Source: Streptomyces sp. NBC_01754 (GTDB lineage: Bacteria; Actinomycetota; Actinomycetes; Streptomycetales; Streptomycetaceae). From it: DNA of 64,000 nucleotides. Below the pieces are notes generated by a model. The model did not search any database, had not been told where the DNA came from, and saw only the letters and a list, made by a program, of their open reading frames with translations. A program made the position numbers and the translations under genes. The stretch covers positions 1 through 64,000 of the forward strand of contig NZ_CP109132.1 in assembly GCF_035918015.1 (NCBI RefSeq), read 5' to 3'. How positions within the stretch are numbered: the first letter of the stretch is position 1; every line of letters starts with the position of its first letter. Positions 1 through 22,649 of this stretch are shown here, in pieces.

Positions 1-16
1 CCGCGAAGACGACGCG

Positions 17-180
17 CCGTCGCTACGCGACGGATACCTCGCGATGCTCCGCATCGCTGACGCTGCGTCACTCCGTGACGCAGGCCGGCCGCTCCGCGAC
101 CGGGGCTCGGTTCGCTTCGCGATCCGAGCGGACGAGAGCCCGCTCCGCGGTCTCTCGACGGAGTTCGCTCCGCGAACTCC
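17..180. repeat. Telomere-like array of seven palindromes
   Basis: Seven consecutive inverted repeats, each with a 3-nt loop: 17-33 (7 bp, loop TAC), 41-57 (7 bp, TCC), 63-83 (9 bp, TCC), 85-103 (7 pairs plus one mismatch, TCC), 105-129 (10 pairs plus one mismatch, TTC), 133-157 (10 pairs plus one mismatch, TCC), 160-180 (9 bp, TCC). Every loop is closed by C-G. On the lower strand the loops read GTA, GGA, GGA, GGA, GAA, GGA, GGA, i.e. all are C-GNA-G triloops. The lower strand is the one whose 3' end would lie at the left terminus. Densely packed GNA-type hairpins on the 3' strand are the known architecture of Streptomyces telomeres. The archetypal first palindrome is not seen, so the window may start just inside the end or the telomere may be atypical. 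Positions 181-368 show no gene; 179-184 and 185-190 are two further 6-bp palindromes. Confidence 0.75.
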
Positions 181-368
181 TAGGGCTAGCTGCGAAGATG
201 GGGCGGGGGTGGTCGATTGTCTGAGGGTCTCGGGCCTGCTGAGCTCGCAGGCGGTGCAAGTCGTTCTCGTGTCGGGGGCGTTGGAACGGGAGCCCGAACC
301 GCTTCCCCATCAGATCTCCACGGTAGCACTCCCAGTGTGCTTCCTTAGTGGAATCGTTGGCAAAAAAG

Positions 369-2867
369 TTACGGGATCTCTGAGAATCCAGGGCGCTCCT
401 CTTCGGGAAGAATGACGCTGACTCCGTTGAGGATGCTCTGAATCAACTGGCTTCTGCTCTCGGAGAGTTGACCGTTCTTCTGGGCAGTGCGGATCTTGCA
501 GAGCCAGGGGCCGATCATCACTCGCTCTCCGTCGACGTCGATCCCCTCCCGGGCACCAGGAGGACGGCCGTGCCGTTCCACGTAGGCGCGCAGCAGTGTG
601 ACGGTCTGTTCGAAGGAGCGGCGCTTTCTGGTCTTGGGGGTGTTGAGTCTGGCGGGAGTGGTGGGCTTCTTCGCCCTCGTTTTCGTTGTGAGGGTGATGT
701 GCGTAGGAGTGAGGCCCAGGCGGGATAGGAGGTGGCGTTGGCCGTCGTCGAGAGTGCTCCAGGTGGTGAGCTGGCGCTGCAGCCAGGCGCCAGCTTTCAC
801 GCCGTCAATTACCGTGTCGCGGCGCAGAGTCGCTGGATCGTTTCCGGTCTGGAGGTGTCGAGCCAGGAGGTGGTACTTGCGGTGCCAGTCGGGTCCGTGG
901 GGCAGAAGCCAGTCGGCGTCGAGGGCGGTAAGGCGCGCATGGCGGGTTTCGGGGAGTTGGCCTTTGCGGGCGAGGCCGCGTTGGTCGACGAGGAGCTGGC
1001 CGCCGGGATCCTGAGCGGGGATGGCGAGGTGGCCGTGTTCTGTGTGGAAGGCCTCGATGAGGGTCATGTTGCCTTCGAAGGCGGCTTCGTGCTCGTCCCA
1101 GATCATGCCGAGCTCGTCGAGTTCTGTGATCCAGTCGGGGGTGAGAGTGTTTCGGCGGTGGGCGGTGCGCTGGCCGGCGATGAAGGCTCCCAGGCGGTAG
1201 CCGTAGGCGTCGGTGTAGTCGACCGGGGCCTTCAGGTGCCCGTGTTCCGTGTGGTACCGGACAGCGGCGGCCAGGCCGGCGCGGCGGGGTCCCGAGAGCA
1301 CCGCGCCGGTAGAAGGCCAGGCCAGCAGGTCCATTGTGCGGGCGATCATGCTGGGGTCGAGGGTGAAGTCGAAGCGGAACCGGCGGGTGAGCAGGCGGTG
1401 GGTGATCTCGTCCAGGCGGTGCGCGGTGGTCTTGCGGGGGGCGCGGGCGGCGATGGTCTGGTCGTGATGACGTAGCGCGGCGGTGATCAGCCAGAGGGCT
1501 TCGAAGGGGGTGTCGAGGAGGTCGGTGGGGTCGGAGTCGGGTGGGATGTAGGCGGGGATGATCAGGCTCGCCATCTTCACGTCGGTGGTGGGGGGTTTAC
1601 GCAAGGCGCGGCCCAGGGCCTGGACGATGCGGCGCACGCTCTCGGTGCGGGAGGCGAAGACGATGGCGTCGACGGCCGGCAGGTCGATGCCCTCGGAGAG
1701 GACCTGGGCGTTGGTGATCACAGCGCGGTCGGCGTTCGCGAAGCGGTCGAGGAGTTGCGCGCGCTGGTGGGGGGTGTGGTTGCCGTTGATCGAGGAAACG
1801 GAGAGCTTCGCGGTCCAGGAGGGGCGTTGGTCGAGTGGGAGGGTGCGCAGGGTGTGGCCGAATTGGCGGGCGAAGTCTTCGGCGTCGGCAACCTGTTGGA
1901 AGTAGACGATCACGTGCTTGAGGTCGTGCTCGGTCATCGCTTTGAGGACGGCCAGGTGCAGGGCGGTCGTCCGGCGCGCGGTCGGGGTGAAGCCGGTATG
2001 CGCGCGGTCGGGGTCGGTCAGGACGGTGCGCAGGTCGGTGTCGGTAATGGTGGGGACCAGGAGCTGGTAGTCGGCCAGGACCCCGTCCTCAATCGCCTCG
2101 GCGTGGGAGTAGGTGTGCAGGCGCGGGCCGAACACCTTCAGATCGTCCATCGAGGCGATCAGGGACGGAGACTCCCATGCCGGTACGGTCGACGCGGTCC
2201 GCTTCGGGCGCGGGCGGGCATCCGGGGCCTCGGCCAGGCGCGGCGCCTCCCACTCGTACGGCGTCGCGGTCAGATACAGGCGGCGCTCCGTGCGGATCCG
2301 GCAGGAATCGTGGACCATCGTCCACTCCTTGTCCCAGGACCCGGCGGTGCGGTGTGCCTCGTCGATGACCGTGAGATCGAAGGCCGGAGCGGGGAAGAGG
2401 GAGTGCTGGATTTCCTCGATCCGCACCAGGGAATCGAGGGTCACGAACACGGTCGCTCTCTCGTTCTTCTTGGCTCGTTGGGCCAGCCAGTACGCCAGGT
2501 ACTCCCCCGACCCTGTACTGCTCGCTCCTGTCTCGGCGAGCACGGGGTGCTTGTCCGCGTTCAGTGAGGAGACCGCCATCAGTGCTTCGGTGCGCCCGTC
2601 CGCGCGGGCCGCGGCCGCCCACTGCCCGATCAGATCCCGGCTGGGTACCACCACCAGCAGAAACCGGATGTCCAGTGCCTCGGCCGTCCGTAGCGCGATC
2701 AACGTCTTGCCCGTACCGCACGCGGACACCATGTGCCCACGCGAACCCGGCCTCTTGAGCCCGCGGACCCCGCTGTCCACCGCCTGCTGCTGATCGGGGC
2801 GCAGCGTACGGCGAGGAGCGTGGGTGGTCTGGGGCGTCACCGCAGCGGGCTCGGGGCTGGTGGACAT
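369..2867 (-). CDS. Telomere-proximal superfamily 2 helicase with helicase-associated domains (TtrA-like)
   Basis: An 832-aa ATP-dependent helicase. Visible SF2 motifs are Walker A ACGTGKT (residues 49-55), DEAH box VIDEAH (167-172), motif III TATP (about 200), and motif VI QALGRALR (near 400). The C-terminal third holds repeated helicase-associated (HA) units with the EHGHL... pattern, and a last unit containing WLCKIRTAQKNGQLS. I chose the ATG at 2867 because it has a GAGG nine bases upstream and begins just before the conserved region; an open frame continues upstream to 3083 but overlaps the preceding gene. Helicases of this architecture (TtrA) are characteristic of the extreme ends of Streptomyces linear replicons and have been linked to conjugal transfer. 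Its place directly inside the palindrome array fits. The family assignment is firm; the TtrA role is inferred from position. Confidence 0.85.
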   Translation of the reverse strand: MSTSPEPAAVTPQTTHAPRRTLRPDQQQAVDSGVRGLKRPGSRGHMVSACGTGKTLIALRTAEALDIRFLLVVVPSRDLIGQWAAAARADGRTEALMAVSSLNADKHPVLAETGASSTGSGEYLAYWLAQRAKKNERATVFVTLDSLVRIEEIQHSLFPAPAFDLTVIDEAHRTAGSWDKEWTMVHDSCRIRTERRLYLTATPYEWEAPRLAEAPDARPRPKRTASTVPAWESPSLIASMDDLKVFGPRLHTYSHAEAIEDGVLADYQLLVPTITDTDLRTVLTDPDRAHTGFTPTARRTTALHLAVLKAMTEHDLKHVIVYFQQVADAEDFARQFGHTLRTLPLDQRPSWTAKLSVSSINGNHTPHQRAQLLDRFANADRAVITNAQVLSEGIDLPAVDAIVFASRTESVRRIVQALGRALRKPPTTDVKMASLIIPAYIPPDSDPTDLLDTPFEALWLITAALRHHDQTIAARAPRKTTAHRLDEITHRLLTRRFRFDFTLDPSMIARTMDLLAWPSTGAVLSGPRRAGLAAAVRYHTEHGHLKAPVDYTDAYGYRLGAFIAGQRTAHRRNTLTPDWITELDELGMIWDEHEAAFEGNMTLIEAFHTEHGHLAIPAQDPGGQLLVDQRGLARKGQLPETRHARLTALDADWLLPHGPDWHRKYHLLARHLQTGNDPATLRRDTVIDGVKAGAWLQRQLTTWSTLDDGQRHLLSRLGLTPTHITLTTKTRAKKPTTPARLNTPKTRKRRSFEQTVTLLRAYVERHGRPPGAREGIDVDGERVMIGPWLCKIRTAQKNGQLSESRSQLIQSILNGVSVILPEEERPGFSEIP

Positions 2868-2937
2868 CGCGTGCAACCTCAACTCGCGCAGAAGGGGGCG
2901 TTCGGCGGCCATCTTCCCGCAGGTGCGGGAGGGGAGG

Positions 2938-3465
2938 TCACTGGTAGAGGAAGTCGGTCCACCACACCTGGAATCCGTCGACCAGGACGACGGCGTTGTC
3001 TGCCACCTGACGGCGCTGGTCGGTTCCGTACGTGGCGTACACGGCGTTGAAGGCCGACCCGGGGTTGTGGTACTCCGCGGCAAGTCGGCAGAAGAAGGGC
3101 GAGGGGTGAAAGACGGTGTCTGCTGCCACTTCTTCGTCCACGAGCTCCGCGGGAAGCTCGCAGTACATCTCGGAGGCGATATGGCAGGCCCAGTCCACCA
3201 GCTTGCGAGTCGCCTCTACATCGGCTGCAACGCGGTCGAGCAGCAGAGGGCGGCAGTTGGGGTCAGGGCATTCGTCCACCGTCGCGTAGAACAACTGGTC
3301 CAGCACGGCAGTGTCGTCCTGGGCCTGGGCGTACGGCAGGTACGACTCGGACGGTGGCACGAACGTGCGTTGCCGACTGCGGACCGTGGCTGCGGTGTGT
3401 ACATGGTCAGCGCCAATCACGCTTCTTTCCACGGCTCCTCCGGCAGGCTCATTCCTCGACATCAC
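2938..3465 (-). CDS. Hypothetical protein, 175 aa
   Basis: An acidic, soluble-looking 175-aa protein with no signal peptide or membrane segment that I can see. It contains a cysteine pair (ECPDPNC) and an aromatic C-terminus (VWWTDFLYQ). It lies about 70 bp upstream of the helicase in the same direction, so the two are probably co-transcribed. I do not recognise the family. The composition (many charged residues, helix-prone, proline-poor after residue 50) supports a real gene rather than a shadow frame. The two consecutive Met codons at the start leave the exact start open by one residue. Confidence 0.55.
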   Translation of the reverse strand: MMSRNEPAGGAVERSVIGADHVHTAATVRSRQRTFVPPSESYLPYAQAQDDTAVLDQLFYATVDECPDPNCRPLLLDRVAADVEATRKLVDWACHIASEMYCELPAELVDEEVAADTVFHPSPFFCRLAAEYHNPGSAFNAVYATYGTDQRRQVADNAVVLVDGFQVWWTDFLYQ

Positions 3466-3623
3466 ACTTCATCGTCGCGCGCCCTGCGCGCACGGGGGCC
3501 ACAGAGCGGCGAACACACCGCACGGCGGTAGATCTTCAGGTAAGGAGACGCGCTTCAAGGCGGGGTAGCGGTGGTGCGCGAGGGAGGATTGCTCGCTCGG
3601 CCCACTTGGTGCCCTTGTGGATG

Positions 3624-4214
3624 TCAAGTGTCCTTCGGTGCTGATGCTTTCCTGCGTGTCGCAGCAGCTCGGGCCTGGGCACGCGCCGCGTAGTGGTGTT
3701 CGAGGGCTTCTCGGGTGCGTTTAGGGATGACCAGTTTCTGCTTGGCGGCGGGGGCGACGAAGGTGCTGGCGCCGGTGCCGTAGCGGCCGTTGAGGGTGTC
3801 GCTGTCGGTCTTGTAGAGCAGGACGTCGACGATGCCGAGGGCGCGGAGGTTGGTCAGTGCTCGTTGGACGTCGTCGATGTCGCGCCAGTCTCTGGTGTAG
3901 ATGCAGATGGGGCGGCGGGTGTCGTCGCTCTTGGGCCGGGTGTTGATGAGCGTGCCTGCCTTGCTGCGGTAGCCGAGGAGGCCGTCTTGGGTGGCGGCGC
4001 GGATCGTGGTCCAGGAGGCATCGAGAAGGCTGATCGGTGTGAACCAGATCCACTTGCCGCTGAAGGAGTGGTCGTCTTCGGTCAGAGGGGCGTCCGGGGC
4101 GGCGGCCCACAGCCAGGGGTCGGTGGTCTCGCGTGACGGGGTGGTGCTGGTGGGGGGCTCGGGTTGGGCCGATGGGGCGGTCTTGGCGTTCATGACCGGC
4201 ACCGTATGCGACAT
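3624..4214 (-). CDS. DUF1917 / phosphothreonine-lyase-like domain protein
   Basis: A 196-aa protein whose core (about residues 50-160) carries GKWIWFTP, LLGYRSKAGT, PICIYTRDW and LLYKTDSDT blocks, as I recall for the DUF1917/Bles03-like family often annotated as putative phosphothreonine lyase domain. That name comes from structural similarity; no reaction is established for bacterial members. The N-terminal 45 residues are low-complexity and rich in Pro/Thr. The start at 4214 has no clear ribosome-binding site; an alternative Met eight codons in (4193) is possible. The gene is divergent from the pPIWI_RE operon, with only 29 bp of AT-rich DNA between the start codons, so the two sides probably share a promoter region. 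Whether it takes part in the defence operon is unknown. Confidence 0.6.
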   Translation of the reverse strand: MSHTVPVMNAKTAPSAQPEPPTSTTPSRETTDPWLWAAAPDAPLTEDDHSFSGKWIWFTPISLLDASWTTIRAATQDGLLGYRSKAGTLINTRPKSDDTRRPICIYTRDWRDIDDVQRALTNLRALGIVDVLLYKTDSDTLNGRYGTGASTFVAPAAKQKLVIPKRTREALEHHYAARAQARAAATRRKASAPKDT

Positions 4215-4243
4215 TCGTTAGGTTTTTTGTTTATTCAGCCACT

Positions 4244-5419
4244 ATGGGTCTTGTGGAACGGAACACTCCTCGATGGCGCCGCGACCTGGCGCTGACCGCG
4301 TGCTGCGCGGCCGCTGTGGCGGAAGCGGACCGTACCGGCGATCCGGGCCAGCGTGCTGCCCGGCTCATCGACTGCCTCGGGGTTCTGCGCTCGACACACG
4401 GTGCCGGCGCGGCCGCCGCCTTGGACATGGGCGTGCTGCGGCGGGGCCTGCGCCACGGGCTCGCGCCCCTTCTGCCCGCGGGTAGCGAGGGCGGGGACCC
4501 GCTCGGCGAGATGAGGCTGCTGAACGAGGACGGCCTGCTGTGCGATGCCGTGGAGGACCTGGGGCGTGAACATCTCGTGCCGCAGCAGGCGTTGATGGAG
4601 TACTGGCCCTGGGCGCGCTTGCGCGCCGAGCAGGAGGAGCAGCAGCTGTACGCGGAGATCCGGCGTCTTCCGCCGGACGATTACGCGAGGGTGCGCGAGC
4701 TGCTGGCGAGTGATCCAGTGGCGGAGCATGGTGTGCTGTGGGAGAAGTGGGGCGGATTGTGGGGGCGCTTCGGGTTCTTCGAGCCGGTCTCGTCCTGGCC
4801 GTGGTGCAACGCGGCGGGCTGGTGTTTCCCGTGCCCCACCTGTGCCTGGCCGATGCGGGCCCAGTCCGCTGGCGACGGTGTCTTCGTCGTCTCGTGCGAC
4901 GCCCATCTTCTGGAGGGGGCGCAGTACACCTACCGGCCGGTGCGGGGAGGCGGCCCTCCGGTCCTGGAGGGCGGGGGCGGCTTGGCCGGTCAGGTGGAAG
5001 GCTTCCCGGCGGCCGGTGACTATCTGGCGGTCTCCCGGACGGTGTGGCGGTATCTGACCCTGCCGGGGCGCATGGAGTTCGCGATCCGGGGCGCGCTGAG
5101 AGGCATCGCCGGTCTCGACGTTCTCATGTATCCGGACGGTGACCGCTACGACCTACGCATCACAGCCGCCGACCCGCTGGTGGCCAAGCAGTGGCGGGTG
5201 GATGCGAAGGCGTGGCGGTCCTTCGGTGCCCTGGCCGATGCGTTGCTCGAGCGTCCCGTGCTGGGCGGAGCAGTGCCGCTGACCATCGTGGTGCCCCACC
5301 GGCAACGGTCCGATCTCCCGCTGCTGCGGGCGCGTCTTGCCGGGCGCACGGACTTTGAGGTGATGACCGACAAGGACCTCGTTACCGAAGTCCTTCGCTG
5401 GTGCCGAGGTGCATTGTGA
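4244..5419 (+). CDS. pPIWI_RE-associated restriction-endonuclease-fold protein
   Basis: The first gene of the three-gene operon (391 aa). The C-terminal domain has a PD-(D/E)XK-like arrangement: an acidic residue in DRYDLRI (about 303), then DAKAW (about 319-323) at the end of the next predicted strand. The centre holds a cysteine-rich knuckle, WCFPCPTC (about 193-200) with further Cys near 187 and 218, probably binding zinc. In the published comparative-genomic description of the pPIWI_RE module, an REase-fold protein of this kind is encoded with a DinG-type helicase and a PIWI-like protein; this gene matches in order and size. The ATG at 4244 is the first in frame after the divergent promoter gap. 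The stop (TGA, 5417-5419) overlaps the GTG of the next gene. It is predicted to be the cleaving subunit; no activity has been shown here. Confidence 0.75.
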   Translation: MGLVERNTPRWRRDLALTACCAAAVAEADRTGDPGQRAARLIDCLGVLRSTHGAGAAAALDMGVLRRGLRHGLAPLLPAGSEGGDPLGEMRLLNEDGLLCDAVEDLGREHLVPQQALMEYWPWARLRAEQEEQQLYAEIRRLPPDDYARVRELLASDPVAEHGVLWEKWGGLWGRFGFFEPVSSWPWCNAAGWCFPCPTCAWPMRAQSAGDGVFVVSCDAHLLEGAQYTYRPVRGGGPPVLEGGGGLAGQVEGFPAAGDYLAVSRTVWRYLTLPGRMEFAIRGALRGIAGLDVLMYPDGDRYDLRITAADPLVAKQWRVDAKAWRSFGALADALLERPVLGGAVPLTIVVPHRQRSDLPLLRARLAGRTDFEVMTDKDLVTEVLRWCRGAL

Positions 5420-8400
5420 AGACCAGTGAGGTTCGTGAGGCGTTGCAGCGCTGTGCCGTCGCTGCCTATCTCACCTTGTCTCAGCAGTACTTCGCCTTCG
5501 AGACCGTCGATGGCCGAAGCGGTGTGCCGTTGGACTTCGCGGCGATGTTCGCAGGTCGGCGCACCGACCTGTGGGGTGCGTGGCTGTCGCTGCCGCGTGC
5601 CGAGTACGAGTTGGTGGGCCGGTTGTGGCGGGCACTCAGGCAGGAGGGGGATCTGGCGCAGCCGGAGACGTTCCGTGAGGCGGTGCTGGAGTACGCGGTG
5701 GCGCCCACGGCGCTGTTTAGGATTCCGGAGGAGTCGAGCGCGGACGAGACCCACTGGCTGGTGGCCTGCCATGCTCAAGAGCCCCTCGTCCTGGCCGAGA
5801 ATCTGGTTCAGGAGGCCGAGGGCTACCGGGGCATGCTGGAGACAACGCTGCCGACGGCCGGCGAGGGCCTGTGGGCGTTCGGTCACGATGGGCTGTACAC
5901 GGTAGAGATTCCTGCCAGCGAGAAGAACGCCTTTGTGGCACCGGTCCGGCTGCGCACCGAGCCGTTCCTTGACGAGGCGAGGCTGCCGCGCGAGGCCGTG
6001 ATGGGCCGCGTGGTGGGCCAGGCGAGAGCCCAGCCGGAGAAGTTCGGGTGGAAGCCCGGCCTGCTGCAGGGGTTCTTCGACCGGCTCACCGACGCCTACG
6101 GCCGTACGGCGGCGGAGCTGCGACTGCCTGCCGGAGCGATGACGCTGTTGAATGCGCCCACAGGGGTGGGCAAGAGCGTGCTGATGCGGGATGCGGCACA
6201 CCTTCTTGCGGCGGGCGGCCAGGGGCCGGTCCTCGTGGTGGTGGGCCGCATCCGTGAAGGGCTGGGGACCGCCGAGCAGTTGGCCGCGGATAGCGCACTG
6301 GTCGAGGAGACAGCCGCCGCTGTGAAGGATGCGGCCGAGCGGGCCAAAAAGCCTCTGCGGGTGGTGGCCTGGGTGGCGTCCTCACGCTACGACGACCAGG
6401 CGGAGCTCGCGTTCTCCCAGGGCCGCGAGGACCGGTTCGAGCAGTTCGCCGGCGGCTGCGAGATGACCGGTTGGCAGGTCGACGGCCCGAGACTGGACCG
6501 CACCAGGCTCCCCTGCGCCCAACTGGAGTGGCTCGACGGGCCCGCCGAGCCGGAGTCTGCCGGCAGGCACCTGTGCCCGCGCATGGGGATCTGCCGGCGC
6601 TTCGAGCACGTCCGGCAGGCCGCCGAGGCCGACATCATCGTGACCAACCACCACAACCTGATCCGGGGGCGCTGCAAGGTACCCGTCGAGGTGGACGGCG
6701 AGCGGGTCGTCAACGACATGAGTGTGCTGGAGTTCGTGCTGCGCCGCTGCCGCGTCGTGATCATCGACGAGGTTGACGCGTTCCAGTCCATCTGGTGCAC
6801 GCAGGGCGCGCAGGAGTTCACCCTCATCAGCCGTGGCCGCGGCAACGGAGGGCGGCTGGAAGAAGTCGACCGGCACCGCAACGGCCTGACCGCGCTGAAG
6901 AACCTGCTGGTGACCAACCCGCTGATGGAGGCGCGCCGGCTCAGCGAGACCTTCCTGGACAACGTGCTGACCGGGCATCTGTATCTGGAGTCCGAGCAGG
7001 AGCGCCAGAATCGTCCCGGATCCGGCTGGTACATGGTGGGCAAGAAGGACGCCGAGCTGTGTCGCATGCTGACGGGCGCCTCGCCGGATGCTGAGGTCAG
7101 TGAAGGAGTCCACCAGGCCTACCTGGCGCTCTTCCCTGGCGAGCAGACTGACGCCGGGGTGCCGGAGGGCTGGCAGCCGCTTGCCGAGCAGATCCGCCAG
7201 GCTCTGGCCGGCAAGGTCCAGGGCACCCGCCGCAGCAGAAAGCTCGCGGTCTTCAAGGACTCCATCTCGCGCATCCTGGGCGGCGCGCCCTTCCATGTGC
7301 CCGCCTCCCGGCGCGCCGCGCTGGTCAATGATCTGCTGGTGCGGGCCTGGCTCGGTGCGCTCCACAACGAGCTGCACACCTTGAAGTGGTCGCTCCTGCC
7401 GCTGCTGGGGGAAGTGAACGCGGCCACTGACCTGGTGTCCACGATGGGGCTGATTCCCCGCGACGAGCCGATTCCTTACGGGCCGCTGGGGCAGAACCTG
7501 TACGGGTTCAAGCTCGACAAGAACGCCGGCGGCACCGGCCGGCTGTCGCTGCAGTCGCTGGGCGGCGACCCGCACACCTCCACCGTCCGCCTGGGCGACA
7601 CCGTCGCCCAGGCGACCGCGGGGGTGCGGCGCAGCGTGCTCGGGCTGTCCGCCACCGCGTTCTTCCCCAAGGCCGCCCTGCAGCACGTGCACACCCTGCC
7701 CGCCTACGTGATGACCGACGCCGCTGTCGGTGCGGTCACCGCCCATGCCGGGAGTGTGTCGGCGACCGACATCGGCTGGCAGCCGATCTCGGTCGGCGGT
7801 GTGGAGGAGAAGCGCAAACCCTCCGAGCTGCGCAAACTCGCCGAGCGGCTGTGGCACACCCAGATGTCGTCGCATCTGGAGAAGGTCGCCCGCAACGACC
7901 CGCTGCGGGAGCTGGCGCTGCTGGCCGGGAACTCCTATTTCCACGCGGAGGTGATGGCCGCCGGGATCGCGGCCGCGTGCGGCCGCCCGGAATGGGTCGC
8001 GGTCCTCGTCAGCAACAACTCGTCCTCCTCCAGAGCGGCCGTGGCCCTGCCCGAGGGTGTGGTGCGGGTGACCATCGACGAACTCGAAGACCTGCCCGCC
8101 ACCCACCCACGGGTGAAGGTGATCTGCGCACCGCTGTCGGTGGTCTCCCGCGGCCTGAACATCCTCATCCCGCACACCGACCGCTCGGCGCTCGCCTCGG
8201 TGTGGGTGGGGGTGCGCCCCATCACGCACCTGCACGAGCCGTCCGTGATGTATGCGAGCATCAACTCCTGTGGCATCGCCGCCGGCGCCGTCAGCGCCGA
8301 CCCTGCGGGCATGCTCGCTTCCCAGCGCAGTGCGGCCATCCGCCAACGGGAGTTGCTGCTGCGCACCGATCCGCGGTTCTCCCGCATGCCGAAGTTCCTC

Positions 8401-8709
8401 AAGACCGAGGTCCTGGCGGGGATCCTCGTCGAGCTCATTCAGCTGGCCGGGCGTGCCCGGCGCGGCGGCACTCCCGTCGAGCTTTATCTGGTCGACCACG
8501 CCTTCTTCAACCAGCAGTTGGGCTGCGACTTCCCTCGTCTCCTGCGCTCCTACTACGACCAGCTCGACGCCGACGAGCAGGACATCTTGTGCCGCGTTTA
8601 CGGCTCCACCCTCACCGCCTGGCTAGACCTCGCCCACAGCGAGAGCCTGCTGCCCCATCCCGTCACGTTGATTCCCGCCCCGGCCCTGGACGATGAAGGA
8701 ATTGAGTAA
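5416..8709 (+). CDS. DinG-type helicase of the pPIWI_RE system
   Basis: A 1097-aa SF2 (XPD/DinG-like) helicase. Walker A APTGVGKS lies near residues 246-253 and the DExD box IIDEVD near 450. Between them are four cysteines (about 348, 367, 387, 392; the last two in LCPRMGIC), placed like the iron-sulphur cluster of DinG/XPD, followed by TNHHNL. The roughly 240 residues before Walker A form the extra N-terminal region typical of the pPIWI_RE helicase partner. I chose GTG at 5416 because it overlaps the previous stop (GTGA) and has GAGG upstream; an in-frame GTG at 5401 also exists. The stop TAA shares a base with the next ATG (TAATG), so all three proteins are translationally coupled. Expected role: 5'-3' unwinding of DNA or RNA-DNA hybrids for the nuclease. 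Confidence 0.8.
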   Translation: MKTSEVREALQRCAVAAYLTLSQQYFAFETVDGRSGVPLDFAAMFAGRRTDLWGAWLSLPRAEYELVGRLWRALRQEGDLAQPETFREAVLEYAVAPTALFRIPEESSADETHWLVACHAQEPLVLAENLVQEAEGYRGMLETTLPTAGEGLWAFGHDGLYTVEIPASEKNAFVAPVRLRTEPFLDEARLPREAVMGRVVGQARAQPEKFGWKPGLLQGFFDRLTDAYGRTAAELRLPAGAMTLLNAPTGVGKSVLMRDAAHLLAAGGQGPVLVVVGRIREGLGTAEQLAADSALVEETAAAVKDAAERAKKPLRVVAWVASSRYDDQAELAFSQGREDRFEQFAGGCEMTGWQVDGPRLDRTRLPCAQLEWLDGPAEPESAGRHLCPRMGICRRFEHVRQAAEADIIVTNHHNLIRGRCKVPVEVDGERVVNDMSVLEFVLRRCRVVIIDEVDAFQSIWCTQGAQEFTLISRGRGNGGRLEEVDRHRNGLTALKNLLVTNPLMEARRLSETFLDNVLTGHLYLESEQERQNRPGSGWYMVGKKDAELCRMLTGASPDAEVSEGVHQAYLALFPGEQTDAGVPEGWQPLAEQIRQALAGKVQGTRRSRKLAVFKDSISRILGGAPFHVPASRRAALVNDLLVRAWLGALHNELHTLKWSLLPLLGEVNAATDLVSTMGLIPRDEPIPYGPLGQNLYGFKLDKNAGGTGRLSLQSLGGDPHTSTVRLGDTVAQATAGVRRSVLGLSATAFFPKAALQHVHTLPAYVMTDAAVGAVTAHAGSVSATDIGWQPISVGGVEEKRKPSELRKLAERLWHTQMSSHLEKVARNDPLRELALLAGNSYFHAEVMAAGIAAACGRPEWVAVLVSNNSSSSRAAVALPEGVVRVTIDELEDLPATHPRVKVICAPLSVVSRGLNILIPHTDRSALASVWVGVRPITHLHEPSVMYASINSCGIAAGAVSADPAGMLASQRSAAIRQRELLLRTDPRFSRMPKFLKTEVLAGILVELIQLAGRARRGGTPVELYLVDHAFFNQQLGCDFPRLLRSYYDQLDADEQDILCRVYGSTLTAWLDLAHSESLLPHPVTLIPAPALDDEGIE

Positions 8710-11480
8710 TGCCCTCGAATGACACCCGCATGTCCCTGCTGGCCGCGCCGTTGACAGCCGCGCTGATGGGCACCGTGTGGCTGTACCGCTTCCCGGATAA
8801 GACCGAGCACGAGTGGAAGAAGCTGCGCGACATCTACCGCGGCAAGACCGGCTCGAAGGCCAACCTGCCCTATGCCGGGCTATTGACGGTCCTGCGCGCC
8901 AGCGGTGCCACCAGCGCCACGCTGAATCCCACCAGCAAGAGCAAGCCTCCCCAGTTCCTCGCACTGTCCAAGAAGCTGCCGGGAACGCATCTGCGGGCCG
9001 CGGTGGCCTTGTGGGAACAGGTCCTGCTGCAGACACCGACGGAGGAGATCTCCCTGGCCTACAGCAGTGACCTCGCCGACCTGTTCGCCTCGGTGGAGCC
9101 CGAACACGTGATGGTGTGGGACCACGTCCGCCTCGGCCCGCACGCCGTGGACGCGGACGGATGGGTGTGGGACGCGGCCAGCTCGAATCTTGCCTCTCTG
9201 GTGGCCAAGACCGACGTATCGGTCGACGGCCGCACCATTGCATTGCGCCCGGACACCGAGAACAACGTCATGGTCTGGGACACCGAGCACCTGTGGTCGA
9301 ACAACTGGCTCGACGCCCGACCCGCCAAGGACAAAAAGCACGACAGTCCCAAGGGCGCTTCCGATGAGTCCCAGGAACCGGAGGAGTGGAAGGTCCGGCG
9401 GCATTACGCCGCACTGCGGGTGGAAGTGGCGATGAAGTCGCTGCACTCGCTGCCCGTACCGCTGGTGGTCATGACGCCCCGTGTGTCCCGGCTGAGCAAC
9501 CAGATCAACGGTGCCCGCACCGCCTGGTGGGCGCCACGCTCCCCCACCCGGCCGCTGCTCTGCCTGAACCTGGGAGGCAAGGGCAAGTACACCCACCTCG
9601 AGCACACCAGCCGCCTGGCCCTGGACGCGTGGGTGCGGCTGATGGACGAGCCCGTCTTCCCCCGCGGCCCCAAGGACACCGAGTTCCTGCCCGTCAGCGC
9701 CATGGACCTGTCCGGCGAACCCGGCGACTTCCGCGCGCTGATCCCCTTCTCGAAGTCCTTCCCCCTCGGCAAGGGGGTCGGTCTGCACACCGTCGCCGCT
9801 CTGGCCGAGCACCTGTCCGAGGTCACCGGGCAGGATCTCGTGAGCGGCCGGCAGGTCGCGAAGGTCCTCTCGGTGGCCGCCCGCAAGACCGAGTACGGCC
9901 GTGATGCCACGCTGCTCGACGACATCGACCTCCAGGACATCATGGCCGCCGCGGGCTGCTCCAAGCTGCGCATCCTGGCCCTGTACGAGCACCAGGAGAT
10001 GCGCACCCGCATGCAGCGGCTGCTGGCCTACCACTTCAACCGGCCCGATCTCGCCGCCGGGATGCCCGACGACGAGATCGTCGAACTCGGCTGTCACACC
10101 GAGGTGTTGCTGCACCGGTGCCCGGAGCTGCTGTCCCACGGCAGCCACCACGACCAGCGCGGTGCGCTGACCGATGCTCTGCCCGGGCTCTCGGCACCGG
10201 GTACCGGGGTGCTGGCCCTGGTCGAGACCGAGTACGACGCCAAGGAGTGGGGCCGCCGGCGCCGCGCTGCCCGCCGCGAAGAGGAAGGTGCCGTCGACCC
10301 GTACCCGCTGGATGCCAAACCGGAAGTCTCCCGGCATCTCGCGCGTCACGGTGTGCTCGCCCAGTTCCTCACCCCCGCCACGAAGAAGCTGCGCTCGAAA
10401 AAGAAGGAACGGGAGGCCGAAACTCCGCTCGAGGCGCTCGGCATGGAACTTGCGGCCGACTTCCCCGGCCACATGGCCATCGGTGACATGCTGCGCGCCG
10501 CCGGACTGGTTCATCCGCGTCTGACCCGGGCCATCTCCACCGGCAAGGGACTCAAGGACCGAGTCGCCCACCTCGGTCTGCACATGCGCGCCCAGCTCGG
10601 CGAAAAGCACACCCACCGCACCGAGGAGCCCAAGCTCATGTGGGTCCTCACCGCATTCGTCCCCGTCGGCGAGCAGTGGAAGACCCTGGCCTATCTGCCC
10701 GCCGACCGGGCCCACCGTGGCGGCTGGCTCAACTACGCCGAGGCCCAGGGGCTGTCGCGCAGTCGCCCCATTCCTGAAGGCAGCCGCGGTGACGACATGC
10801 TGCCCCGACGCATCGACCACGCCCTGTTCGAGCTGGCCCGGCACCTGGAGTGCGGCTATGTGCTCTACGTTTCCGGTGACTCCACCCGCCCTGTCTGGCC
10901 GCTGCTGTCGAACAAGAACGCCAATCTGCTTACCGACGACGACGGTCTGGCAGGCGGCAGGCCGGCGTTGCCCGGTGCCACGCTGGCGCCCGAGCACCGG
11001 CCGCGCGCCGTTATCCGCACCACCTCCAGCGCCGACCCGAGCATTCCGGTGCCCGCGCTCTTCCACGAGATCGGCGAGGACGGCAACGAGAACGGCGGGG
11101 ACAAGACCAGCAACGCGCTGTTCCAACTCGACGGCACCGACACGACGTTCCTCATGAGCCGGCGCCCCCACCAGATGGACGGCAAGACCCCCTCGGCCAA
11201 GTCCGGCCGCAATCAGGGGCGTTGGAGCTGCGACGACAAGGAGCAGCAGGCCGAGACCTGGTACAACCTCACGGCTACCGAGATCGCCGTCATCCAGCGG
11301 CCCGACGGGGACGACGCGCTCCCCTATGCCCTGACCGCTGCGAGGCTGTGCAACCACGCCCTGGCCTGGGAACACCGCACCCGCCACCCGCTGCCCATCC
11401 ACGCCGCCATCCAGATGGACAAAAACCACCCCGAATACCGGCGCACCATCGACTACGAGGTCAACGACGCCACCGGCTGA
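8709..11480 (+). CDS. pPIWI_RE family protein (RNase H-fold PIWI-like)
   Basis: A 923-aa protein, last gene of the operon. The order of segments matches the pPIWI_RE family: an N-terminal pPIWI_RE_X-like region, a central MID-like region, and a C-terminal RNase H-fold domain (about residues 640-923). Blocks such as VLYVSGDSTRPVWPLL (about 720-735) and the run ending WYNLTATEIAVIQ are characteristic of that domain. The family was defined by comparative genomics as a prokaryotic PIWI branch linked to a nuclease and a helicase, and was proposed to act on R-loops or invading nucleic acid; I know of no mechanism proven for this type. ATG at 8709 is preceded by GAAGGA eight bases upstream. The gene ends 77 bp before a convergent gene. 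Confidence 0.8.
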   Translation: MPSNDTRMSLLAAPLTAALMGTVWLYRFPDKTEHEWKKLRDIYRGKTGSKANLPYAGLLTVLRASGATSATLNPTSKSKPPQFLALSKKLPGTHLRAAVALWEQVLLQTPTEEISLAYSSDLADLFASVEPEHVMVWDHVRLGPHAVDADGWVWDAASSNLASLVAKTDVSVDGRTIALRPDTENNVMVWDTEHLWSNNWLDARPAKDKKHDSPKGASDESQEPEEWKVRRHYAALRVEVAMKSLHSLPVPLVVMTPRVSRLSNQINGARTAWWAPRSPTRPLLCLNLGGKGKYTHLEHTSRLALDAWVRLMDEPVFPRGPKDTEFLPVSAMDLSGEPGDFRALIPFSKSFPLGKGVGLHTVAALAEHLSEVTGQDLVSGRQVAKVLSVAARKTEYGRDATLLDDIDLQDIMAAAGCSKLRILALYEHQEMRTRMQRLLAYHFNRPDLAAGMPDDEIVELGCHTEVLLHRCPELLSHGSHHDQRGALTDALPGLSAPGTGVLALVETEYDAKEWGRRRRAARREEEGAVDPYPLDAKPEVSRHLARHGVLAQFLTPATKKLRSKKKEREAETPLEALGMELAADFPGHMAIGDMLRAAGLVHPRLTRAISTGKGLKDRVAHLGLHMRAQLGEKHTHRTEEPKLMWVLTAFVPVGEQWKTLAYLPADRAHRGGWLNYAEAQGLSRSRPIPEGSRGDDMLPRRIDHALFELARHLECGYVLYVSGDSTRPVWPLLSNKNANLLTDDDGLAGGRPALPGATLAPEHRPRAVIRTTSSADPSIPVPALFHEIGEDGNENGGDKTSNALFQLDGTDTTFLMSRRPHQMDGKTPSAKSGRNQGRWSCDDKEQQAETWYNLTATEIAVIQRPDGDDALPYALTAARLCNHALAWEHRTRHPLPIHAAIQMDKNHPEYRRTIDYEVNDATG

Positions 11481-11557
11481 CAAGCGACAACGACGGTCGC
11501 CTCCCCTGCTCCGGGCAACAGCGGAGCAGCGGAGGCGGCGCTGCCGTGCTGGAAGCC

Positions 11558-13012
11558 TCAAAGCGGACGTCGAGTGGTGGGTAGGCGCGAACGTGCCCGC
11601 GCCGAAGAGGCCGGGGCAGCCGGGACAGGGGCGTCCACGTGCCGGCAGCGGGCGGCGGTGTGCCAGTCCTCTGCTGGGTGCGGGTGTGTGACGGCCGGGA
11701 TGTCGAGGCCGGCGTCGCGGATGAGGTGGTCGAAACGGATGGAGGTGCCGAAGCATCCGGCGAACAGCCCGAAATGGTCGGCAGTGAGTGGAGTACGGCG
11801 GCGGAAGGCGAGGGCGGCGGCAAGCAGGGGGCGGGCACGGGCCGGGATGGCGTACATGTGCCGCGGACCGGGTGGCATGCCGATGTAGATCCGCGAATCG
11901 CGGTCGATGGCCAGGCGGGTGGCGTGCTCGTCGAGGCTGGTGATCTGGGTCATGGACAGCAGGGCCTGGTCGGTGCCGGTGAACAGCAGGGCGGCTGCCG
12001 CGGCGGCTCGCAGCGGGTTGGGCAGGTTCGTGGTGAGGGTGTGGGCCACGTGCGGGGTGATCGGCACGGTGGTGATGCCGGGGCCGCCCCGCGCGGCGAG
12101 GTCGTCAGGGACCTCGAGGTGGAGTTGCCGGTCAAGGAAGTGGGCCTGGGCGCCACGTATGCGTGCGAGGGTGTGGCCAGGGCTGGGGCTGGAGACGGTG
12201 AGGCGGGACAGGAACAGGCGCAGGCTCTCCATGTCCTGCCAGTCGGTGGGTTCGTGCGGGCCGGTGTCCTCGTCCGGGGGTCTGACGGTGGCTGTCGCTG
12301 CGGGCGTGAAGCGGGGGTGGCGGGCCAGCCAGGTGCGCGCGGCGGCGTGGCCGGCCCGGTACTGGCTGTCGGTGCGGGCGAAGTCGTCCTTGTTCAGGTG
12401 GTGTCTGCACTCCTGGAGGAAGGAGGCGGCGTCGGCCTCGGGCAGGTCAGGCAGCGCAGGAATGTGGTCGGGCGGGGGCGGGCTGTGGAGTCGGTTTGTG
12501 CCGGGCGGGCCGAGGGCGTCCAGGACTGCCAGGGTGCCGGAGGCGGTGTGGAGATCGGCGAGGCCGGCGGCGGCAAGGCGTGCCCGCAGGCGGTACTCGG
12601 TGGCCTCGGTGGGGGTGTGGGCAACGAGGGTGAGGCGGATGCCGGTCTCCGCGCGCCAGGCGGCCAGGCGCGCCAGGCGTTCGGAGGTGAGGCGGTGGGC
12701 GCGCAGCACGATGGCGTGCTGGAGCCTGGTGGTCAGGGTCCAGCAGGTCACGGCGCGCCAGGCCGCGTCGGTGGACATCCGCTCGGCGTCGGGGCGGGTA
12801 AAACTGTCGCGGCCCATGGCGCGCAGCAGGTCCAGGGCGAGGTAGGCGAGGCTGTTGGTGTGCGGGGTGGGATCGGCGGTGATGCAGCCGGCGCTGGGGT
12901 CGCCGCGGTGGAGGGCGGCGCGGTGGAGGGCGTGGTCGTCGCCTGCATCGAGCAGCAGCAGGACGGGCGGCAGGGTGGTCGGCGCGCAGGCGGTGGAGGC
13001 GAGTTGGGTCAT
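11558..13012 (-). CDS. Hypothetical protein of a transposon-like module, 484 aa
   Basis: I do not recognise the family. The start at 13012 is supported by a 4-bp ATGA overlap with the stop of the upstream ATPase gene, so the two are co-translated. The N-terminal half has an ATPase-like look without a P-loop (IVLRAHRL ... IRLTLVAHT resembles a degenerate Walker B and sensor strand). The C-terminal half (about 300-440) has a helix-rich layout (LLFTGTDQALLSMTQITSL, then a strand pair IDRDSRIYIGMP) faintly reminiscent of a tyrosine-recombinase core, but I cannot find the R-H-R-Y set. The partner ATPase suggests a role in transposition target selection, by inference only. Confidence 0.5.
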   Translation of the reverse strand: MTQLASTACAPTTLPPVLLLLDAGDDHALHRAALHRGDPSAGCITADPTPHTNSLAYLALDLLRAMGRDSFTRPDAERMSTDAAWRAVTCWTLTTRLQHAIVLRAHRLTSERLARLAAWRAETGIRLTLVAHTPTEATEYRLRARLAAAGLADLHTASGTLAVLDALGPPGTNRLHSPPPPDHIPALPDLPEADAASFLQECRHHLNKDDFARTDSQYRAGHAAARTWLARHPRFTPAATATVRPPDEDTGPHEPTDWQDMESLRLFLSRLTVSSPSPGHTLARIRGAQAHFLDRQLHLEVPDDLAARGGPGITTVPITPHVAHTLTTNLPNPLRAAAAAALLFTGTDQALLSMTQITSLDEHATRLAIDRDSRIYIGMPPGPRHMYAIPARARPLLAAALAFRRRTPLTADHFGLFAGCFGTSIRFDHLIRDAGLDIPAVTHPHPAEDWHTAARCRHVDAPVPAAPASSARARSRLPTTRRPL

Positions 13013-13799
13013 GGGCGGCGCGAGGTGTCGATGCGGGCGACGACCCGCCGCAGCAGGCCGGGATCGGGGCACGCGGCGCCGGTAGCGGTCAGGGTTCGCT
13101 GGACGTGGTGGGTGAGCAGGGCCCAGCGCCGCAGGCTTCCGTGCGCGAAGTGACCGTCCAGAGATAGGAGTTGGTCGGGTGCGACGGTCTGCCACAGCGG
13201 GTGCAGGACCGCCGCGGCGCGTGGGACCTGGCCCCGGGTGAGCGGCTGGAGAGTCAGCCATGTGGTGGTGCGCGTGAGAAGCATCTGCTGGGCGCGCAGG
13301 GCCTTCTCACCTCGCTGGCCGGCGATCAGGACGGCGCACAGGCCGTCGGGTAGGTCGTCGTGCAGGAAACGCAGGTACTCAAAGCATGGCTCGGGCATCC
13401 GGTCGGCCTCGTCGACGACCACGATGCGGGGTGCGGCCCCGAGGGCGCGGCGGATCAGCGCGTCGGCGGCGGCCGGTTCGGCCGGTGCGGTGCCATGAAT
13501 GCCGAGGGCATGGTGCAGGTGGAAGCGCAGGTCGGCCGGGCCTGGTCTGGCCCCCAGGCGCAGCGGAACGTGCGCCCGAGGGAAGCGGGTGTGGGCGGTG
13601 TGGTGGACGGCGAAGGTCTTGCCGAGGCCGGCGTCGCCCAGTACGCACAGGAAACGCCGCTGCCGGTGGGCGTCGGCCAGCGCGCTGTCGACGTCCGTCA
13701 GGCCGGGGGTGAGGACGGTACGGGCGCCGGCCAGGCTGAGGAAGTGAAGCCGGCGGGGCGTGGCCTGGCCGGCGAGGGGGGGGCCTTGCCCCTACGGAG
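13009..13799 (-). pseudogene. AAA+ ATPase, 5' end removed by IS3-family element
   Basis: The frame encodes a P-loop (CVLGDAGLGKTF), a Walker B strand (IVVVDEADRM) and a helical lid, as in the TnsC/TniB/IstB class of transposition ATPases. The coding frame is open from codon GGG at 13791 but has no ATG or GTG before the Walker B region (GTG at 13422). An in-frame TAG lies just outside, a few bases from the IS boundary at 13800. The N-terminal start has therefore been lost to the insertion. The product would overlap the 484-aa gene by 4 bp at its 3' end. Confidence 0.7.
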
Positions 13800-13818
13800 T
13801 GGACACCTGTTCGTGTCG

Positions 13819-14709
13819 TTATGCGGCGAGTGTCAGGGTAGCTGACTGTTGTTCGTAGGCATTCGGTGCCTTCTGTCCGTTCGCCGAGTGTCGTCGGCGG
13901 GTGTTGTAGCGGGTGGTCCAGCGGAAGACGGCCAGGCGGCAGGCGCGGGCGCCGTCGTAGCGGCGGGCGCCACGGAGCGTCTCGCGTTTGAGGGCGGCGT
14001 TGAACGACTCGGCGAGTGCGTTGTCCGCGCTCGTTCCGACCGCCCCCATGGACTGTCTGACGCCCAACTGTGCGCATAGCCCGGCGAATTGGCGGGAGCT
14101 GTACTGGGCTCCGTGATCGCTGTGGAAGACGGCGCCTGCCAGGCTGTCGCGGACCCGGGCTGCGGACCGGAGCGCGTCGGCGACCAGCTCGGTGCGCATG
14201 TGGTCGGCGATCGACCAGCCCACCAGGCGGCGCGAGAAGCAGTCGATGACGGTGGCGAGATACAGGAACTCGCCGTCGCCCACCGGCAGGTAGGTGATGT
14301 CGCCGACGTACTTGGTGTTCGGCGTGCTCGCGGTGAAGTCGCGCCGCAGCAGGTCCGGTACAGGGGTGGCGGACGGTTCGGGCACGGTGGTGACCTGGCG
14401 TTTACGCAGCCGCAGTCCGGCGATGCCGAACTTTCGCATCACCCGTCCGACGCGCTTGTGGTTCACGCGCTCGCCGTCGTCACGCAGCTCGGCGGTGATG
14501 CGGGGGCGGCCGTAGGTGCCGTCCCACTCGGCGTGCACGGCCCTGATCCGCTCGGCGAGAGCGGCGTCGGCCCGCTCGCGCGCGGCGCGGGCCTCGCGGC
14601 CGGCCCGCCACTTGTAGAAGCTGGAGCGGGCGACCTCCAGCACGGCGCACAACCGCTTCACGCCCCAGGCGCGGTGGTGGTCCTCGATGAACTGGAAGCG
14701 GTTGGTCAC
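13819..14709 (-). CDS. IS3-family transposase OrfB (DDE integrase)
   Basis: A 296-aa catalytic subunit. It begins with the HTH_21-type region (YGRPRITAEL) and contains the rve integrase core with the DDE triad: D in KYVGDITYLP, D in HSDHGAQYSS, and E in NALAESFNAALKRE, followed by the RRRHSANGQKAPNAYE tail typical of IS3 OrfB. It starts at GTG 14709, overlapping the orfA stop by four bases (GTGA). In this family an OrfAB fusion is made by ribosomal frameshifting or by coupling. There is no internal stop, so it is probably functional. Confidence 0.9.
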   Translation of the reverse strand: MTNRFQFIEDHHRAWGVKRLCAVLEVARSSFYKWRAGREARAARERADAALAERIRAVHAEWDGTYGRPRITAELRDDGERVNHKRVGRVMRKFGIAGLRLRKRQVTTVPEPSATPVPDLLRRDFTASTPNTKYVGDITYLPVGDGEFLYLATVIDCFSRRLVGWSIADHMRTELVADALRSAARVRDSLAGAVFHSDHGAQYSSRQFAGLCAQLGVRQSMGAVGTSADNALAESFNAALKRETLRGARRYDGARACRLAVFRWTTRYNTRRRHSANGQKAPNAYEQQSATLTLAA

Positions 14710-15056
14710 CAGGTCATCTCTTGTGCGAAAAACTTCGTCGCCTTGCGCAGGATGTCACGCTCGGTGGCCAGTTTCTGCATCTCTTTGCGCGCTGTCGCCA
14801 GCTCCCGGCGCAGGGCCTCGTTCTCGGCCTGAAGCTCCTGGGCCGTCGGCGGGGAATCCACCGTGCTCTTCTCCGTGCTCGTGCTCGTCGTGCTGCCCCC
14901 GCCGTGGCGGGCCCGCTCGGCCCGCACCCAGTTACGCAGCGTCTCCCGGCTGATCCCCAGGTCCTTGCCGATGCCCTCGAAAGTGTGGCTCGGGTCCGAC
15001 AGGTACAGCGCGACAGCGTCCGCCTTGAACTCGGGCGAGTAGACCTTCATCACCAT
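14706..15056 (-). CDS. IS3-family transposase OrfA
   Basis: A 116-aa DNA-binding subunit. The N-terminal helix-turn-helix (YSPEFKADAVALYL to GISRETLRNWV) binds the terminal repeats. The C-terminal coiled coil (ELQAENEALRRELATAR) is the leucine-zipper dimerisation segment normal for OrfA. The ribosome-binding site GGAGG (within AGGAGGAATC) is visible upstream of the ATG at 15056. Confidence 0.9.
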   Translation of the reverse strand: MVMKVYSPEFKADAVALYLSDPSHTFEGIGKDLGISRETLRNWVRAERARHGGGSTTSTSTEKSTVDSPPTAQELQAENEALRRELATARKEMQKLATERDILRKATKFFAQEMTW

Positions 15057-15107
15057 AAGAGATTCCTCCTACCCGGCCCCTGCCGGGGCCGGGCTCAGAG
15101 GTGTCCA

Positions 15108-16001
15108 CCACTCGGGGACAGGTCCCTCCAGCGCGGACTGCTCCTCGCACGGCGGATGCTGCGGCGAAACGGCGAACGCCGCCAACCCGGCCCGCACATC
15201 GCCATCGACAGCGACTACGGCGGCACAGGCAAACGCACGCTGCTGCACCACATCGGCATGGGCCACCAAGGGCGCCGCGAGAAACTACACGGCATCGACG
15301 ACACCCGCATCCCGGTGATCTGCATCAACGCCCCGCCCACCCCGGGCACCCCGGCCGACTGGTCCGCCGCCCTTGCCACGTTCCTGGGCTGGGACCTCTA
15401 CCGCTCCGACACCGACAGCCGGCCCGTGCAGCGCATGAAGGACTTCACCGGGCCCGCCGTGCACGTGATGCGCACCAACCACGTAGAGGTGTGCCTGGTC
15501 GACGGGATCGACCGGCTGCGCACCGAGGACCTGCAGCCCACCTTCGACTTCTTCGACTACCTCGCGGACGAACTGAGCCTGACGGTCTTTTGGAGCGGCA
15601 TCGGCTCCAGCGACATCCTCCGCGAAGCACGCACCGCCCGCTTCCCCGCCCTGCGCCGGACAAGCGACGCCGCACCGCTGCGCCAGCGGTCCGTACCCAC
15701 CTTGTGGGTCAACCGGCTACCGCCTCGCAGCCCCGAACACCCCGACGAATGGCCCCGCGCCCTGGCCAGTTTCGACGGAAGACTCCAGCTGTGCCACCAC
15801 CGGCCCAACAGCCTCCTGGAGCTCGCCGAAGAGCTCTACGACATCACCGACGGGCTCATGGAAAACCTCACACCGCTGCTCAGCATGGCCGCGCAGATCG
15901 CCATTCTCGACGGCACAGAGGCGATCACACCGGAGATCATGCACGACGCAGCCCGATACCTCGATCTGCCCGCGGCAGGCACGATGGGCGAGGCGTGGTG
16001 A
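15108..16001 (+). pseudogene. TniB-like AAA ATPase, 5' end removed by IS3-family element
   Basis: The frame reads out of the IS right end into an ATPase with P-loop DYGGTGKRTLL, the block VICINAPPTPGTP, Walker B VEVCLVDGIDRL and a sensor strand (TVFWSGIG). It resembles TniB-type transposition ATPases. The frame is open from the IS boundary; the first ATG is at 15156, only some 20 codons before the P-loop, shorter than a usual N-terminus. The gene points away from the IS, opposite to the ATPase remnant on its left. Expression from 15156 (281 aa) cannot be excluded. Confidence 0.6.
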
Positions 16002-16122
16002 CGCAGAGCGCGGGTGCCGGGCTCTCACCACCGACGAGTACGCGGGCCGCTCGCACGCCGTGCCGGACACTCGCACGCGTAGCCCAGCGGGGCCGCAGCT
16101 AGCGGGCGCCCCTGAAATGCGA

Positions 16123-16156
16123 CAGGGTCCAGATCCTCGAATGGATCCGGACCCTG
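16123..16156 (-). terminator. Hairpin terminator downstream of the tRNA
   Basis: Arms 16123-16136 and 16143-16156 pair over 14 positions with one mismatch around a 6-nt loop. It lies 9 bp beyond the 3' end of the tRNA gene on the lower strand. Confidence 0.7.
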
Positions 16157-16164
16157 CTCGGCAG

Positions 16165-16238: not shown

Positions 16239-16296
16239 TCGGTGAAGCCAACCGTACGCCATCCCGCGAGGTCCGCAGACCACCTCCGGCCAGGGG

Positions 16297-18390: not shown

Positions 18391-18404
18391 CGGGGACGCT
18401 CCCT

Positions 18405-18737: not shown

Positions 18738-18766
18738 CCGCCCACCTCCCAGAAACCGAACTCTTC

Positions 18767-22580: not shown

Positions 22581-22649
22581 TGAACCCGGACACAAGATCA
22601 CTTCTCAAAGACCCTGCTCGCCCGGGCGTGCGGTGCGGTTGCCACCGCA

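Follow-up and report, generated by a model that had tools for sequence, protein, structure and literature searches.

We analysed the first 64,000 bp (positions 1-64000, here called the window) at the left end of the 7,738,802-bp contig NZ_CP109132.1 of Streptomyces sp. NBC_01754. Close to the tip lies a pPIWI_RE system of three overlapping genes, all on the forward strand and in the order REase, DinG-type helicase and PIWI protein (the triad), together with a fourth, divergently transcribed gene for a protein of the BLES03 family (Table 1); the four genes are referred to below as the cassette. Labels beginning with G denote genomes (G000 is the window's own genome, C1 its contig) and those beginning with L denote compared loci. 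The longest open reading frame (ORF) of the BLES03 gene starts at 4214 (3624-4214, minus strand; 196 amino acids, aa), and that of the helicase begins at 5401 and codes for 1102 aa; in both proteins residues are numbered by the longer frame. The helicase gene probably starts at GTG 5416, because three relatives (L065, L066, L081) have a break in the frame just past the codon equivalent to 5401. The REase and helicase genes overlap by GTGA (5416-5419), the helicase and PIWI genes by TAATG (8707-8711).

Table 1. Coordinates of the cassette, its genes and the surrounding features in the window.
Feature	Position	Strand	Evidence or remarks
Four-gene cassette	3624..11481	.	DNA similarity to 8 other loci, approximately from BLES03 stop codon to PIWI stop codon
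BLES03-domain (PF08939) gene, 189 aa from conserved start (M8, position 4193)	3624..4193	-	Pfam, predicted fold
Divergent 50-bp promoter region (predicted)	4194..4243	.	-10-like TACGGT (complement of 4201-4206) for BLES03; TATTCA (4232-4237) for triad
pPIWI_RE_REase protein, 391 aa	4244..5419	+	PF18154 E 1e-14, 55 bits vs cut-off 26.1; PADLOC PprRE E 2.4e-10
DinG-type helicase, 1097 aa from GTG 5416	5416..8709	+	PADLOC PprDinG E 3e-97
pPIWI_RE protein, 923 aa	8709..11480	+	PF13032, PF13111, PADLOC PprPIWI E 2.4e-53
ResIII/helicase-associated-domain gene	369-3083	-	Adjoins cassette; transcribed outward
Terminal inverted repeat, left part	1..64000	.	Both contig ends compared; repeat extends to position 70,091

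An earlier note, drawn from the letters of this DNA, had described three intact and translationally coupled components, namely a REase-fold protein with a DAK motif, a DinG-type helicase with four cysteines placed as for an iron-sulfur (FeS) cluster, and a pPIWI_RE protein. ORFs, Pfam and PADLOC confirm all three (4244-5419, 5401(5416)-8709 and 8709-11480), both overlaps are present, and the RNaseH, X and REase domains of the pPIWI_RE families all score above their Pfam cut-offs, those of the 923-aa protein included (PF13032 RNaseH_pPIWI_RE: E 1.7e-32, 113.9 bits, cut-off 25; PF13111 pPIWI_RE_X: E 3.1e-10, 40.2 bits, cut-off 30.5). The triad is intact, as the note had it, but 4244-11480 is too narrow a boundary for the complete system, since the divergent BLES03 gene (3624-4193) was missed. 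Likewise, the identity of the pPIWI_RE protein stands, but the apparent loss of both its RNase H-type catalytic aspartates had been overlooked.

The nuclease and the helicase keep their catalytic residues in the alignments. In the REase protein R151, the zinc ribbon (C197/C200/C218/H221) and the PD-(D/E)XK core (E278/D300/D303/D320/K322, including D320 and K322 of the DAK motif) are invariant in 33/33 rows, which represent 31 distinct loci, three rows being the window's own sequence or copies of it (L100 and L101 are copies). The helicase carries Walker A K258, a DEVD motif at 456-459 and C353, C372, C392 and C398 at the FeS positions; the four cysteines and the other key residues are invariant in all 27 aligned rows with the exception of V458 of DEVD. 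These 27 rows exclude L065, L066 and L081 (early stop codon), L103 (fragment) and L096, a plasmid locus (NZ_CP108874.1) in which an IS3-type insertion at 9958-12013 splits the DinG gene and the fourth gene is still annotated. Skipped from the REase/DinG residue alignment were L068, L075, L088, L089, L091, L035, L073, L074, L092, L105 and L106, which are duplicates or fragments or lie too far away in sequence, together with products shorter than 250 aa. Pfam gives the helicase only a sub-threshold AAA_25 match, so that its DinG assignment rests on PADLOC and on the motifs. A sequence search of the PDB returned no relative of the triad proteins (E up to 1 for the PIWI profile and the REase, up to 0.01 for DinG), and NCBIfam no match for any of the four cassette proteins.

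The predicted fold of the PIWI protein resembles Argonautes across residues 3-912, with two SPARDA entries among the matches. The two RNase H-type catalytic aspartates (DEDX) of an active PIWI protein appear to be absent from the window protein, as assigned by position: H625 (in strand 619-629) and S722 (end of strand 716-722) are found where they would be expected. Rows L005, L007, L008, L019 and L029, which were in the wrong frame, are left out of this comparison. In the R/E signature, R770 occurs in 24/24 rows and E858 in 22 of the 24, the match to the published R and E being by position only. Because histidine and serine occupy the expected aspartate sites, the PIWI protein is probably a non-cutting recognition subunit, and with its catalysis predicted to be lost, cutting would be expected of the REase protein instead. 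Some prokaryotic Argonautes (SPARDA-type and similar) are nuclease-dead and act together with effector partners. The cassette would resemble them in that PIWI recognition proceeds without intact catalytic aspartates and a partner nuclease does the damage; unlike them, it has a PIWI protein of full-length fold whose N-terminal domain is specific to the family, a helicase as partner, and a zinc-ribbon PD-(D/E)XK nuclease as a protein of its own. It also appears to differ from PsPIWI-RE of Pseudomonas stutzeri, for which passages of PMC10991935 report catalytic D525 and D610; H625 and S722 seem to stand at the corresponding places by motif, not by alignment.

The fourth protein matches PF08939 with an E of 1.4e-17 and 64.9 bits (cut-off 23.1), covering profile positions 162-249 of 255 only, and matches the structure of human BLES03 (C11orf68, PDB 1ztp) by sequence (E 9.4e-7; 27-31% identity over the aligned region). 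Its predicted fold is that of BLES03 and eIF4E, the likeness to eIF4E being at fold level only, and the putative pocket residues of BLES03 are present as well. Unlike BLES03 and eIF4E, it is bacterial and tied to a PIWI cassette. The putative basic pocket (K54, K85, R101, Y106, K135) is invariant in 21/21 rows. For human BLES03, K128, K159, Y175, K204 and R169 have been proposed as pocket residues (PMC4159009), and these correspond to K54, K85, Y106, K135 and R101, K85 having been placed by hand and the others by alignment. The same correspondence speaks for another function, as Khater and Mohanty (2014) predicted BLES03 to be a phosphothreonine lyase (PMC4159009): the fourth protein could be an eliminylase that strips phosphate off phospho-Ser/Thr residues, either in a component of the triad or in a protein of the invader, as a switch for the system. 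We regard this as possible, if unlikely. The ligand that we prefer is the 5' end of RNA or guides; phosphoprotein chemistry and promoter control rank below it.

Judged by co-occurrence, genomic linkage, boundaries and co-divergence, the divergent BLES03/eIF4E-fold gene forms a single unit with the triad. When positions 1-16000 of the window were compared by blastn, single matches of about 7.86 kb ran from 3622-3646 to 11481-11483 in seven loci and from 3597 to 11496 in an eighth; in those seven the match starts no more than 22 bp from the BLES03 stop codon and ends 1-3 bp past the PIWI stop codon. L065 alone of the eight aligns further, in the helicase gene next to the cassette and in part of the tip. 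In all 17 clade loci compared (the window, 12 further chromosomal loci or contigs and 4 plasmids) the four genes are detected and the BLES03 gene is divergent; the first codons of the window's BLES03 and REase ORFs have their equivalents 24-32 bp apart in these loci, as extrapolated from tblastn. Clade members that are truncated or partial and in which no fourth gene was detected (G362, G046, L070, L073, L074) were excluded from this set; the shortened PIWI genes at G362:C1:712686-714860, L070, L073 and L074 are probably remnants or contig-edge pieces. A comparison of neighbours across 15 clade loci and the distant L086 and L093 found no other gene common to more than five of these 17; the ORF caller saw the fourth gene in 12, and L071, L072 and L095, which it missed, are positive by tblastn.

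The same association is found across the genus. Among 392 Streptomyces genomes PF13032 occurs in 111 and PF08939 in nine, which are exactly the nine with a full-length PIWI protein of the window's clade (at least 52% identity). None of the 102 other PF13032 genomes has PF08939 (Fisher p 2e-13, from hand-entered counts uncorrected for relatedness), and neither do the two genomes with a shortened clade PIWI gene (G362, G046). With PF08939 missing from 102 of the 111 PF13032-positive genomes, we rejected the idea that pPIWI_RE systems in general have the fourth gene as a neighbour. Ten of the 11 places with PF08939 adjoin a triad, and the eleventh is on the G093 contig, near its right end. The BLES03 distance matrix correlates with those of the three triad proteins at 0.96-0.97, a value reached in 0 of 2000 permutations. 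A single ancestral joining could explain all linked copies, and unlinked copies of the family exist, so that the fourth gene might be a functionally unrelated passenger stuck beside one ancestral triad. This we consider very unlikely: the gene is kept in 17/17 loci, even where identity of its protein has fallen to 40%, and amid differing surroundings, its pocket residues are conserved, the promoter region is shared in 16/17, and it is retained even where an insertion splits the DinG gene.

That promoter region lies between start codons which are 50 bp apart in the window. The BLES03 start codon at 4193 is ATG or GTG in 14/14 aligned clade loci. TAnnnT is found 6-7 nt 5' of this start, and TATnnn 6-7 nt 5' of the triad start, again in 14/14 each; of the three unaligned clade loci, L068 and L072 share the layout, which gives the total of 16/17. 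Since each -10-like motif precedes its start codon by only 6-7 nt, leaderless transcripts are likely, and the arrangement suggests two overlapping divergent promoters, although the motifs are short. Leaderless transcripts are common in Streptomyces. The overlapping motifs would also suit a regulator or antitoxin-like safeguard that binds the shared promoter region or a triad protein and restrains the nuclease. Genes for helix-turn-helix (HTH) proteins 5' of the REase gene in two other Streptomyces triads would fit such a role for the fourth protein, and so would the HTH fusions to REase that are reported in passages of PMC3702460. Against it, the invariant residues of the fourth protein include those of the putative ligand pocket, and overall we find a regulator doubtful. 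To our knowledge the eIF4E/BLES03 fold is not among the known DNA-binding regulator folds.

The two HTH proteins in question are Xre-like (L107:4094-4654 and L111:16656-17924). In three further Streptomyces triads a gene of about 550-600 aa is found just 5' of the REase gene (L106:2226-3905, L119:15709-17364, L105:17999-19819); the two that were scanned (L106, L119) match PDDEXK_1 and may be another type of accessory.

The earlier note had also placed the system near a replicon end, on a linear replicon arm. It does lie at the left end, inside a terminal inverted repeat, but the identical second copy was missed. The two contig ends show a 2-bp shift and a few changes within the first 150 bases and are identical thereafter to position 70,091; a second, identical triad is mirrored near the opposite contig end, with its PIWI gene at G000:C1:7727324-7730092. 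As the cassette is located inside this repeat of about 70 kb, there are two copies per chromosome, one at each end. Short hairpins within the first 180 bases of the window are consistent with a streptomycete telomere, telomeres of this kind being palindrome-rich (passages of PMC8743542). Other cassette-bearing replicons have genes like the helicase-domain gene at 369-3083 near their ends; the one of S. corynorhini (L065) is 71% identical. The window's gene is at most a candidate ttrA: it runs outward, and the usual direction of ttrA, as given in passages of PMC8743542, is inward. On the other side of the cassette, window positions 13819-15056 hold IS3-type transposase genes (one ORF scanned, with rve and HTH_21; the second judged by eye).

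The position at the ends suggests a further alternative, in which the cassette would act in replicating linear replicons or in maintaining their ends instead of in defence. It is present in both terminal repeats here and within about 18 kb of the end of a linear molecule in two of the four plasmid records that hold at least 80% of the PIWI protein. Furthermore, three of five clade members lie within 60 kb of a chromosome end, compared with one of 26 among single-contig genomes with other PIWI-RE proteins (Fisher p 0.008), in a small, post hoc tally made by hand over 28 single-contig genomes and G000 that omits multi-contig chromosomes such as G166. A knockout of the P. stutzeri relative is ciprofloxacin-sensitive and filamentous, according to passages of PMC10991935, and this phenotype keeps a replication role open. 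On the other hand, the cassettes of G110 and G269 are located 0.5 and 1.46 Mb inside from the chromosome ends and others are found inside plasmids, the four-gene form occurs in only nine of 392 genomes of the genus, and Streptomyces chromosome arms gather horizontally acquired genes generally. We therefore hold a role in replication or end maintenance to be improbable. In G166, whose genome lacks PF08939, pPIWI_RE genes of a different clade are found about 23 kb from both ends (G166:C1:22157-23932 and 9100483-9101346); the two copies score differently and hence are not identical.

PIWI relatives with 82-94% identity over nearly the full protein were found in S. corynorhini, Streptomyces sp. 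NBRC 110028, S. spirodelae, S. smyrnaeus and S. albus. When the fourth protein was searched against 5.8 billion proteins, 27 matches were obtained, and all those with an organism name are from Streptomyces (the method reaches close relatives only). Phage origin was considered and rejected: the PIWI and BLES03 proteins had no match in 50,697 phage records, and the BLES03 alignment, the only query used there, had none in IMG/VR contigs. Across 396 genomes of the phylum, PF08939 occurs in one genome besides that of the window, on a 9.3-kb contig without a triad gene by tblastn. Replicons with PF08939 and no PF13032 match are two Streptomyces plasmids and one Cupriavidus replicon (one of the two Cupriavidus records was searched). 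One of these Streptomyces plasmids, NZ_CP118575.1, contains a fragment of a clade DinG gene (60808-61638; 46% identity, residues 24-301) and an unlinked BLES03 gene. BLES03 genes beside helicase-associated-domain genes were observed near replicon ends in L122 (5572-6081 of the plasmid NZ_CP107961.1, which has no PF13032) and in L104 (G093, right end), where only some 0.2 kb of contig follows. The latter is not a terminal-repeat copy, as it has 37% identity to the window protein compared with 42% for the left copy, and was taken as a separate copy.

The three-gene system of REase, DinG and pPIWI-RE was predicted by Burroughs, Iyer and Aravind in 2013 (main text of PMC3702460), who proposed DNA restriction at RNA:DNA hybrids, with PIWI sensing the hybrid, DinG unwinding or translocating and REase cutting. 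The window agrees with that system in gene order, overlaps, zinc-ribbon REase, FeS DinG, and X and RNase H domains, and differs from it, as described in the main text, in adding the divergent BLES03/eIF4E-fold gene to the unit. A word search of that main text (DUF1917, eIF4E, "fourth gene"), to which this statement is limited with the additional files outside its scope, found no mention of such a partner. Neither was any paper on a BLES03 partner of PIWI-RE found in the open-licence literature, preprints being outside the scope and the search mostly by title and abstract. The triad is thus of a known kind, the four-gene form with the BLES03 gene is one that we rate as new, and its function is what we infer from sequence. 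The earlier note had called the mechanism of this PIWI branch essentially open, which largely holds, except that PsPIWI-RE has been studied biochemically and by knockout (passages of PMC10991935).

The mechanism that we propose has four steps, in falling order of confidence. Steps one to three are those of the published proposal of R-loop restriction, adapted to the apparent loss of PIWI catalysis. The PIWI protein would recognise a duplex of guide and target, probably an RNA:DNA hybrid, and leave it uncut; recognition would bring in the DinG-type helicase, which would open the hybrid or R-loop; and the PD-(D/E)XK protein would then cut the exposed DNA of the invading element. The fourth step is new and the weakest. 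Here the BLES03/eIF4E-fold protein would be a dedicated partner whose basic pocket (K54, K85, R101, Y106, K135) may bind a phosphorylated moiety, the likeliest being an RNA or guide 5' end, and which would in this way supply or license guides. The defence role is one that we infer. Taken whole, with all four steps, the reading of the cassette as a four-gene, horizontally mobile variant of a pPIWI_RE conflict system has in our estimate an even chance of being right.

Several observations weigh against this reading. The steps rest on the sequences of all four proteins and on the predicted folds of the PIWI and BLES03 proteins. Placement of H625 and S722 is by motif position and predicted strands, not by residue-level superposition, and the MID_pPIWI_RE domain (PF18157) was not detected in the window's PIWI protein by Pfam at E 0.01; the same domain does match a distant Streptomyces relative, L106. 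The 17 linked loci are related and hence not independent events, and since the BLES03 family also occurs without a triad, it can act alone. Alanine replaces K54 in one row of alignment A2 (P0009) and leucine replaces R101 in L099, which belongs to another family. The most divergent locus, L098, departs from the shared promoter layout: GGAGG takes the place of a -10-like hexamer before the start of the fourth gene, and TACGGT that of TATnnn before the start of the REase gene. Finally, the authors of the P. stutzeri study read their phenotype as a role in replication or division (passages of PMC10991935).

pPIWI_RE systems have been little studied since 2013, and open-licence titles show a single bench study of a member. 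The fourth gene is a new, small and testable component of this family, in a lineage found here so far only in Streptomyces. At the same time human BLES03, a protein without established function, gains a bacterial genomic context that is open to genetics. In a bolder version of the fourth step, which we rate as unlikely, the eIF4E-fold protein would be a 5'-end reader that hands RNA or guide ends to a catalytically dead Argonaute-fold protein and so licenses DinG and the nuclease against transcribed invading DNA. If true, an eIF4E-like fold and a PIWI protein would here work as a pair in the guided immunity of a prokaryote.

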